A program made the position numbers and the translations under genes. This document shows positions 6,513 to 8,782 of a stretch of DNA of 14,844 bases, one piece after another. This DNA comes from Clostridia bacterium (GTDB taxonomy: Bacteria > Bacillota > Clostridia > UMGS1883), in the NCBI GenBank assembly GCA_017441965.1, contig JAFSBF010000205.1:1-14844 (forward strand). Direction: 5' to 3'. The notes beneath the pieces were generated by a model. It saw only the letters and a program-made list of their open reading frames with translations. It did not search any database and was not told the DNA's origin. Within the stretch, counting starts at the first letter, position 1, and every line of letters begins with the position of its first letter.

Positions 6513-8012
6513 ATGAATTATAAAAGTACACGTGATAATAATATAAGTGTTAAAAGCAGTGAGGCTATTGCAAAGGGTCTTTCCCCCGAGGGCGGACTTT
6601 TCGTGCCTGACAGTATTCCCATTATATCTGAAAGCAATATTAAGTATATGGCAGGGATGTCATATACACAGCGTGCAAAGGAAATCCTCGGACGGTTCCT
6701 TACCGACTTTACTGATGAGGAGCTTGATGCGTGCATAAATGCGGCATATACAAAGGAAAAGTTTGAAACAAATGCCATTGCACCCGTTTATAAGCTTAGT
6801 GACAGCCAGTATGTGCTTGAACTGTGGCACGGACCGACGTGTGCGTTTAAGGATATGGCACTTCAAATTCTTCCGCACCTTCTTACAACATCTGTTAAAA
6901 AGCTCGGAATAGAGCGTGAAACAGTTATCCTTGTTGCGACAAGCGGCGATACGGGTAAGGCGGCTCTTGAAGGCTTTAAAGATGTTGATAATACAAAGAT
7001 AATCGTATTTTTTCCTGACGAGGGTGTAAGTCAGATTCAGCGTCTGCAGATGTGTACCCAGGAGGGTAAAAACGTATTTGTAAGTGCGGTAAACGGAAAC
7101 TTTGACGATGCGCAAAACGGTGTTAAAGCGATATTTACCGATAAAGAATATGAAAGCTTTTTGCAGGATAATAAAAAGGCATTAAGCTCTGCAAATTCTA
7201 TCAACTGGGGCAGACTTGTTCCGCAGATAGTTTATTATTTCTCCGCTTATTGCGATATGATTGCAGCAGGGGAGATTGAATGCGGTGATGAGGTTAATAT
7301 CTGCGTTCCTACAGGTAACTTCGGAAATATCCTTGCGGCATATTACGCAAAATGTATGGGACTTCCCGTAAAAAAGCTTATATGTGCATCAAACAAGAAC
7401 AATGTTCTTACAGATTTCATAAATACAGGTGTTTATGACAAAAACAGAGATTTCTATGTTACAACATCTCCGTCAATGGACATCCTTATTTCGTCAAACC
7501 TTGAAAGACTTCTTTATATGATTTCAGGCGGCAGGGCAGATGTAGTAAGCTCTTATATGGCAGAGCTTAAGGAAAATGGAATCTACACTGTAAGCGACGA
7601 AATCAAAAATGAAATCAAAGAAAGCTTCTACGGCGGATGCGCAGACGATATTAAGTGTGCTGATACAATAAAGGAAACATATGAAAAGCACGGCTATGTA
7701 ACTGATACACATACTGCCGTTGCCGTATGTGTTCATAACGAATATGTAAAAGAAACAGGCGATAATACAAAGACTATTATTGCATCAACCGCAAGTCCGT
7801 TTAAATTTAATGGAGCAGTTCTTAGCGCACTTGGCAAAGAGGACGAGGTTAATGAGCTTGATGAATTCAGGCTTTTGGAGAAGCTTGCAAACGATTATGA
7901 ACTCAGAATTCCTGCATCACTCAAGACCCTTGAGGAAAAGGAAGTAAGATTTGAGGTTGTTTGCGACAAAAATCAGATGAAAGCCGTTATCAACGAGTTT
8001 TTGGCAAACTAA
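6513..8012 (+). CDS. thrC: Threonine synthase
   Basis: A 499-residue PLP enzyme converting O-phosphohomoserine to threonine. It opens with the N-terminal threonine synthase motif (YKSTRD...EGGLFVPDSIP), has the PLP-lysine motif HGPTCAFKDMAL with Lys113, the phosphate-binding ATSGDTGKAAL, and VPTGNFGNILAAYYAK. The length fits the long, roughly 500-residue class of threonine synthases. AAAGGAATT precedes ATG 6513, 14 nt after leuS, so it is probably co-transcribed with the translation genes. Three nt after the stop, structured element A begins; the first T-run hairpin is at 8166-8280. Confidence 0.96.
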   Translation: MNYKSTRDNNISVKSSEAIAKGLSPEGGLFVPDSIPIISESNIKYMAGMSYTQRAKEILGRFLTDFTDEELDACINAAYTKEKFETNAIAPVYKLSDSQYVLELWHGPTCAFKDMALQILPHLLTTSVKKLGIERETVILVATSGDTGKAALEGFKDVDNTKIIVFFPDEGVSQIQRLQMCTQEGKNVFVSAVNGNFDDAQNGVKAIFTDKEYESFLQDNKKALSSANSINWGRLVPQIVYYFSAYCDMIAAGEIECGDEVNICVPTGNFGNILAAYYAKCMGLPVKKLICASNKNNVLTDFINTGVYDKNRDFYVTTSPSMDILISSNLERLLYMISGGRADVVSSYMAELKENGIYTVSDEIKNEIKESFYGGCADDIKCADTIKETYEKHGYVTDTHTAVAVCVHNEYVKETGDNTKTIIASTASPFKFNGAVLSALGKEDEVNELDEFRLLEKLANDYELRIPASLKTLEEKEVRFEVVCDKNQMKAVINEFLAN

Positions 8013-8014
8013 AC

Positions 8015-8158
8015 TAAGCACACGTGCGTCGAACCCCATATGGTTTTAAAATATGATGCGGAGGACGAAGATAGGCTGACGCCTTTCAAGGACGACAAGT
8101 TAAAAGTGTGCAAATTTATCAAGTTTAAGGCATATGGGATTCGGCTCACGTGTGCTTA
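8015..8158 (+). repeat. Element A: 144-nt structured inverted-repeat element in the thrC 3' region
   Basis: The ends form a long stem: 8015-8026 (TAAGCACACGTG) pairs perfectly with 8147-8158, then 8028-8042 (GTCGAACCCCATATG region) pairs with 8131-8145 with one mismatch and one G-U. Inside is a core at 8056-8098 that is identical to the reverse complement of 8364-8406 in element B (43 of 43 bases). The core contains a short AGGC-TGAC-GCCT hairpin. It starts 3 nt after the thrC stop. It has no coding capacity that looks real. It could be a MITE-like mobile repeat or a structured RNA element; I do not recognise the family. Confidence 0.8.
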
Positions 8159-8161
8159 TGT

Positions 8162-8281
8162 AAACAGACTGCTGCATTAAATCTACTGCACAAAGCCATT
8201 GAAAAGCAGGGGGATTTCCCCCTCACAGTGCGAGCTGTTTCCCTGCAATGGTGTGTGCATTTAATGCAACAGTCTTTTTTA
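8162..8281 (+). terminator. Branched hairpin with T-run, probable terminator or small RNA
   Basis: 8166-8182 pairs with 8259-8275 (17 bp, one mismatch), followed by an inner stem CCATTG 8196-8201 / CAATGG 8246-8251, then CAGG 8207-8210 / CCTG 8242-8245 enclosing two small hairpins (GGGG...CCCC around 8210-8222 and CAG...CTG at 8227-8237). The outer stem ends in TTTTTT at 8275-8280, as an intrinsic terminator on the plus strand would. It probably ends thrC transcripts after element A. The multi-branch fold is larger than a normal terminator needs, so a small RNA or a third palindromic repeat are alternatives. Confidence 0.6.
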
Positions 8282-8303
8282 GGAATTACTCAGAAAATAC
8301 CGT

Positions 8304-8581
8304 TAGGCATAAGGTGTTCGAACCCAATGTGCCTTAAACTTGTTAAATTTTTATTCTTTTTATTTGTCGTCCTTGAAAGGCGTCAGCCTATCTTCGTCCT
8401 CCGCATAAAAATCATATAAAATTTTCCTGCGTTTAAGGTCGAAGAGTTTAAAAACAAGAAATTTTGTTATAAGACAAAGAAAATTCAAGAATAATACTGT
8501 CGTATATTTGCAGAATTTTCTGCAGTATTATGCGAAATTTCTGTTTTTAAACCATATCGGGTTCGACTACCTTATGCCTTA
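8304..8581 (-). repeat. Element B: 278-nt relative of element A, inverted, in the DUF1540 3' region
   Basis: Read on the minus strand it follows element A: an outer stem (AGGCATAAGGT 8305-8315 with its complement 8569-8579), then the shared TCGAACCC / GGGTTCGA arms (8318-8325 with 8559-8566), the 43-bp core (8364-8406) and a shared AT-rich 3' part (AAATTTAnCAAGTTTAAGGCA in sense). The outermost stem differs in sequence from that of A but is still self-complementary. It has about 134 nt more than A between the left arm and the core, including a hairpin ATAATACTG 8491-8499 / CAGTATTAT 8523-8531. Its terminal TAA is the stop codon of the DUF1540 gene. Confidence 0.8.
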
Positions 8582-8758
8582 GTTACAGCATTCTCTCTTT
8601 TTGAAGGTTTCGCAACCTGTTTCGTTAACTGCACACGCATCATGTCCGCAAACGTTAATATGCTCTGCAACGCACTCATTTGAGGTTGTATGATGAACGC
8701 AGTTTTCAACGACGCATCTTACGCCGTTTAAGGGCTTGTCTGAGTTTACAGTTGACAT
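8579..8758 (-). CDS. DUF1540 cysteine-rich small protein
   Basis: A 59-residue protein matching DUF1540, a family of unknown function common in Clostridia. The recognisable part is VRCVVENCVHHTTSNECVAEHINV (residues 13-36), with cysteines at 15, 20, 29, 37, 42, 49, 57 and 58; the spacing suggests metal binding, which is inference. ATG 8758 is chosen because AGGAG (plus-strand CTCCT at 8767-8771) lies 8 nt upstream; the earlier in-frame GTG lies inside that site. The stop codon TAA (8579-8581) is the first triplet of element B. It is divergent from the metallophosphoesterase gene. Confidence 0.85.
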   Translation of the reverse strand: MSTVNSDKPLNGVRCVVENCVHHTTSNECVAEHINVCGHDACAVNETGCETFKKRECCN

Positions 8759-8782
8759 CGTTATCACTCCTGACGAAAAATC

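Follow-up and report, generated by a model that had tools for sequence, protein, structure and literature searches.

A TA-flanked, MITE-like repeat of Clostridia with a predicted functional RNA, often found at gene ends

Results

The window, i.e. the whole stretch of 14,844 nucleotides analysed here, contains the threonine synthase gene thrC, a DUF1540 gene and, between them, two related elements termed A and B (Table 1). The initial annotation had placed each element right behind a stop codon, and this was confirmed: A starts at 8015, three bases behind the thrC stop codon (8010-8012), and B begins inside the DUF1540 stop codon (8579-8581, minus strand). The 43-bp core described as common to both was identical at 43 of 43 positions between A and the reverse complement of B, with identity ending at both borders; the wider match between A and B covers 88 nt with 89% identity (8056-8143 and 8319-8406). 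Each element is closed by an inverted repeat, of 83% in A and 82% in B. With a G+C content of 32.7%, B is A+T-rich, as is asked of a MITE. Compared with B and other full copies, A is without domain P2 and without the 5' strand of the outer helix of domain P3 (for the domains, see below).

Table 1. Genes, elements and element parts at the thrC-DUF1540 locus.
Feature	Position	Strand	Description
thrC, threonine synthase	6513..8012	+	Pfam-confirmed; A lies behind its stop codon
Element A	8015..8158	+	144 nt, shortened copy; flanking TA at 8015-8016 and 8157-8158; core on plus strand
Left arm of A (P1 and start of interior)	8015..8049	+	inverted repeat I2
Model match in A	8020-8134		58 bits (covariance model)
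43-bp core in A	8056..8098	+	identity comparison
Right arm of A	8124..8158	+	inverted repeat I2
Element B	8304..8581	-	278 nt, full-length; flanking TA at 8304-8305 and 8580-8581, the latter being the TA of the DUF1540 stop codon; core on minus strand
Right arm of B, in core sense	8305..8338	-	inverted repeat I3
P3 domain of B, conserved RNA-like fold	8328..8445	-	model R1, 119.6 bits, E 3.2e-27; family covariation
43-bp core in B	8364..8406	-	identity comparison
Left arm of B, in core sense	8546..8579	-	inverted repeat I3
DUF1540 gene	8579..8767	-	Pfam-confirmed; its stop codon contains the TA at which B lies

The end of thrC was found in 7 of 7 genomes of the genus. At the thrC-DUF1540 locus, G004 and G002 contain neither A nor B and represent empty sites, a short hairpin remnant lies within the terminator in G003, G001 retains the remnant of an arm where thrC stops, and G005 has two other copies nearby; on the thrC side of the locus, G006 has no A at the stop codon. 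Deleting B together with one TA from the window yields GTAACTAAC, which matches G004.

The stretch between the two genes also comprises a long terminator-like hairpin (8162-8279), the apical stretch of which, CAGTGCGAGCTGTT, occupies the corresponding position in five of the six other genomes of the genus, though thrC is only 72-77% identical. This hairpin may represent a separate, conserved 3' RNA.

A tRNA-like end and a protein reading of the core were considered and rejected. Many right arms of the family resemble a T arm, yet others lose this likeness and keep their pairing; no tRNA was detected in the window by ARAGORN. The core frame is open in A, and an extra base in L037 and L040 shifts it (by eye).

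Using a covariance model of P3, we obtained 15 matches in the draft genome of the window (1.34 Mb, 228 contigs), A and B included. A 27-base core pattern allowing up to 3 mismatches was found at 10 places in this genome, compared to none for the reversed control pattern. These numbers indicate that the likeness of A and B is above chance. Searching for the core in the parent genome and in other Clostridia, as the initial annotation had proposed, revealed a multi-copy family distributed across genomes. By DNA search, 18 of 60 genomes carried the element. With the covariance model, 18 carriers were detected among 28 genomes at the level of the order. At class level, the sample of 391 genomes contained 47 carriers, belonging to 29 of 222 genera (9 candidates were scored per genome, copy numbers thus being lower bounds), and among 249 genomes drawn from the phylum the single carrier was that of the window itself. 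The exact core pattern occurred in 88 stretches of genome_contigs, with titles such as Oscillospiraceae, Ruminococcaceae, Clostridia and Acetivibrio sp., and gave no match in viral_contigs, which were searched for viral carriers. Copies within the same genome were 93.5-98.9% identical (G355, G402 and G582).

No named family was found to match, as had been suspected. In the window and ten loci, no Rfam 15 family reached its gathering score, the best match below threshold being MIR8565 with 28.6 bits where 136 are needed. We found no description of the element in the literature consulted, including parts of the candidate lists of PMC11109978 and PMC8040213; it could be among the remaining candidates of PMC11109978.

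Full elements of about 276 nt consist of P1, P2 and P3. P1 is a terminal inverted repeat of approximately 25 bp that pairs end to end and encloses the two hairpin domains, i.e. P2, a long hairpin, and P3, a stem bearing the core hairpin. The arms of P1 were complementary at 2197 of 2471 aligned positions and thus are terminal inverted repeats in the sense used for MITEs. They differ strongly between subfamilies, even inside one genus, with complementarity kept. Types I and II, as used below, were defined after the data had been seen. Most full copies measure 273-281 nt and so exceed the limit of less than 200 bp set for MITEs (PMC2229807); a short subfamily of 152-165 nt consists of P1 and P3 without P2. 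The maximum of 391 nt was reached by two G013 copies (L286 and L288) with extra hairpins inserted into the interior. In G016, ends of the short subfamily also enclose forms of 115 and 116 nt without the core hairpin, as well as a 161-nt form with a P2-like interior, the P2 likeness of which scored 48, compared to 23.8 (SD 4.1, maximum 39) in 200 shuffles. The 115- and 116-nt, 161-nt, short and 391-nt forms show that ends are joined to interior modules in more than one arrangement.

The 161-nt form corresponds to L281 3056-3216 (G016:C7:28155-28315) and has no P3 core. L317 likewise displays short-subfamily ends and a P2-like interior without P3 core, its right end being unreadable. Many deleted copies and lone ends belong to the family. 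Little beyond the two arms is left in L197 and L198 (G060), remnants of 58 and 33 nt, and in one copy (L011, L242; G000:C27) the core hairpin is broken by another G+C-rich palindromic stretch. At L190 (around position 352), GGGAGGTGAAC forms the end of a lone arm, only a few bases upstream of a GTG start codon (by eye), and this remnant may now serve as a ribosome-binding site.

TA was present at both ends of 71 of 100 elements (types I and II) and absent at one or both ends of the other 29; control offsets gave 2, 7, 8, 3 and 11 per 100 for TA at both ends. In a short subfamily, the flanking motif is TAA or TTA: of nine G016 elements with both ends readable, eight were flanked by TAA/TAA or TTA/TTA and one by TGA/TTA (by eye). 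Some copies break genes. When the element and one TA were removed, L034 and L137 yielded continuous reading frames; a phosphoesterase domain spans the join in L137, and a weak cupin match and an AraC-type domain flank it in L034, one on each side. Empty sites at A, B, L034 and L137 are consistent with TA duplication, as judged by comparison between species or by the restored frame. One copy, in L348, lies directly against the TA that terminates another arm. T-TA-A was the preferred target away from stop codons too (n = 34). Given that the element starts with A or G after TA, a TAA or TAG stop codon survives insertion.

Usable flanks were available for 93 elements of types I and II, 42 of which touched a stop codon. 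Compared with random use of TA in the same intergenic stretches, contact with a stop codon was observed for 41 of 92 elements and expected for 23.8 (about 24), and the observed value was reached in none of 50,000 simulations. A stricter count gave 15 of 52 elements at a stop codon versus 8.7 expected (P 0.003). The link to stop codons is thus real, and the suggestion that the repeat targets gene ends is supported. Since T-TA-A is preferred also away from stop codons, TAA is likely to be hit, and selection may account for some of the excess.

The initial annotation had furthermore proposed that the elements lie in sense in the 3' UTR of their gene. Among the 42 stop-touching elements, 22 were oriented in sense and 20 in antisense to the touched gene; as a general rule, the proposal fails. 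For the nine scorable copies of the window's genome, A, C119 and B were found in sense at a stop codon, C174, C93, C96 and C137 in antisense at a stop codon, and C201 and C143 at 106 and 58 nt behind one. The in-house gene finder missed DUF1540, and the sense orientation of B was read from the sequence. The attachment of the repeats to stop codons is hence attributed to the choice of TA rather than to a role of RNA in the 3' UTR.

Of the 115 distinct elements, eight had short flanks, and gene context was assigned to the other 107. Where neighbours were co-directional, 45 elements were in sense and 31 in antisense, B being wrongly included in the latter; 16 lay between convergent and 13 between divergent genes. 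An earlier, cruder count (35 sense, 12 antisense, 15 divergent, 14 convergent) was more biased than the later one. Sense to antisense ratios at co-directional genes were 27:10 for type I, 4:15 for one type II group and 11:3 for the remaining type II elements; these groups were made after the fact, B is again wrongly antisense, and C137, type II by its arms, was placed in type I. The GC skew of the flanks, checked for replication as a cause of orientation, was confounded with gene direction.

Conservation of the P3 fold was evaluated on alignment A1, containing 39 of 45 non-redundant sequences (A, L044, L049, L056, L110 and L130 were left out as truncated or shifted). The 45 sequences originate from 104 core matches, from which redundant sequences, edge cases and members of the short subfamily had been removed. 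Pairing was found in 88.6% of cells, compared to 73.0% in shuffles, and double changes at 26 of 35 pairs, compared to a shuffled mean of 17.1; neither the pairing nor the double-change value was reached in any of 500 shuffles. Double-change cells numbered 214, versus 58.6 in shuffles. Slid structures scored far lower than the P3 fold; the shuffles leave relatedness in. The fold is kept across subfamilies with unrelated arms, and in the helix beside the core, Watson-Crick pairs alternate with tandem G-A.

We counted G-U and A-C appositions in the three domains, all counts being of sequences and not of independent events. The ratio of G-U to A-C in P3 was 75:13, or 55:13 after omission of five doubtful pairs; G-U was in excess in both type I (24:7) and type II (31:6). 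Untrimmed P2 displayed the opposite sign (27:89), for which a recurring C-A just beyond the P2 helix accounts; counting P2 helices only, a trimming made after the fact, gave 25:7 (78 elements, 12 skipped). For P1, a first count resulted in 97:68 (77 elements) and a count with fixed arm windows in 86:94 (90 elements). Given that G-U exceeds A-C in P3 and trimmed P2 and not in P1, these sequence patterns suggest that selection has kept the interior in the form of a single folded strand and the ends in that of repeats at the DNA level. When DNA folds, it likewise tolerates G-T more readily than A-C, and the P3 counts therefore cannot separate RNA from single-stranded DNA.

A mobilising enzyme was not found by inspection of end pairs in four genomes or by searching 7 carriers for DDE_3 and DDE_Tnp_1. 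We looked for the ends in G060, G016, G355, G402 and G582, allowing at most 3 mismatches; G582 gave no match, its ends being different. Nearest inward partners in G060 formed 27 pairs of up to 430 nt, 21 of them full length; one pair represents a chance overlap of 2 nt, its true mate at 276 being counted among the 21. G016, G355 and G402 yielded 27, 4 and 8 pairs, respectively. Three ends had a far partner only (G060 C30, 4,559 nt; G060 C1, 3,994 nt; G016 C18, 765 nt), and C30 of G060 is an eroded copy. None of the inward end pairs in the four genomes was shown to enclose a transposase gene, the pairs of 765-4,559 nt lying outside this check. The lone ends inspected were eroded copies or located at contig ends, and no convincing match was obtained when arms were sought within 8 kb of the core. 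The IS630-type domain DDE_3 was detected in none of 7 carriers and in 3 of 14 control genomes, and a MITE driven by IS630, as is RUP, was rejected on this basis. DDE_Tnp_1, tested for the IS4/IS5 type, was present in 1 of 7 carriers and 9 of 14 control genomes.

Discussion

A and B are probably copies of a new, non-autonomous element of Clostridia that is MITE-like and contains a predicted functional RNA; we file it as MITE-like because its size lies above the MITE limit. As such it would add to the gut and rumen Clostridia a recently moving, widespread family with a conserved fold that is absent from Rfam 15. From the interpretation given by the initial annotation, a gene-end repeat with conserved internal structure is retained and a general in-sense 3' UTR rule is dropped. 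Of the observations named there as speaking against it, even orientation and ends resembling a TA duplication were indeed encountered, whereas position relative to genes was non-random and no known IS-derived MITE matched.

In the mechanism that we propose, the P1 ends would be the substrate of an enzyme provided in trans, which would insert the element into TA, preferring T-TA-A. This preference would make stop codons favoured targets, and selection would retain copies landing after a stop codon and ahead of the following gene. In the least certain step, P2 and P3 would act as an RNA of the core strand that aids the element's own movement, e.g. by transposase binding. That the RNA serves the mobility of the element itself is a guess, prompted by the fact that it is retained whichever way a copy is oriented; the RNA may instead act for the host in trans, or have lost its function. 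A bolder version, a transposable element without protein that combines exchangeable DNA ends with a two-domain RNA recruiting or guiding the enzyme to TA at gene ends, appears unlikely to us; if true, it would represent another role of RNA in DNA transposition, beside bridge RNAs and TnpB guide RNAs. The contrast between ends and interior raises the question why a mobile element without protein keeps an RNA, and which enzyme moves it.

Alternatively, the family could be an ordinary MITE derived from a lost insertion sequence, with a leftover interior and a fold that is a by-product of palindromes and shared ancestry. Its ends and TA fit known bacterial MITEs (PMC2229807), and deleted copies and lone ends are many. 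We nevertheless consider this explanation improbable, given the excess of P3 double changes, the persistence of the fold across subfamilies with unrelated arms, the restriction of strand-asymmetric mismatches to the interior, and the far lower scores of slid structures, even with relatedness left in the shuffles. Little credence is also given to a single-strand DNA element, in which an enzyme would recognise the folded DNA strand as in integron cassette sites or IS200/IS605 ends. The G-T tolerance of folded DNA would agree with it, as would the opposite orientation of type I and one type II group at co-directional genes, a post hoc observation; however, the closing helix P1 lacks strand asymmetry in the fixed-window count, though it would be part of the folded strand. 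Moreover, TA or TAA/TTA is found at both ends, whereas single-strand transposition is not known to leave a target duplication. Improbable, too, is an RNA module that serves the host in 3' UTRs or between operon genes (as mRNA stabiliser, processing site or terminator aid) and is kept for its effect on neighbouring genes: the conserved fold, the excess at stop codons and the 20 of 93 elements located between a touched stop codon and a start codon at most 30 nt away would suit it, but half of the copies would present the other strand, the loci are not conserved, with relatives devoid of A and B, and some copies disrupt genes.

The MITE-like element that we favour shares one feature with transposons that use RNA. 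IS110 with its bridge RNA, IS200/IS605 with the TnpB guide RNA, and HEARO encode a structured RNA in a mobile element, as does, by prediction, the present family. In contrast to them, it is without protein gene and without Rfam match at gathering score, and has long inverted repeats and a TA duplication.

Further parallels are provided by bacterial repeats. The bcr repeats of the Bacillus cereus group include the MITE-like bcr1-bcr3 as well as bcr10 and bcr18 with conserved structure, and about half of the bcr repeats are transcribed within mRNAs (PMC3446304); compared by description, they resemble our element in being intergenic and partly MITE-like or structured, and differ in their hosts. 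A screen of 50 genomes resulted in 250 candidates for mobile or repeat sequences and described MRSC-65-2 (PMC11109978), which like our element is multi-copy, structured and covarying, with no fixed orientation to genes; MRSC-65-2 forms a single long stem, whereas our element is built of P1, P2 and P3. The bacterial MITEs Correia/NEMIS and RUP have in common with it terminal inverted repeats, TA ends, A+T-richness, an intergenic location and a transcript predicted to be strongly paired (PMC2229807). They measure approximately 100-200 bp and are genus-bound (PMC2229807), in contrast to about 276 nt and a presence in 29 of the 222 genera sampled across the class for the present family, which is further distinguished from them by exchangeable ends and a conserved three-way-junction interior.
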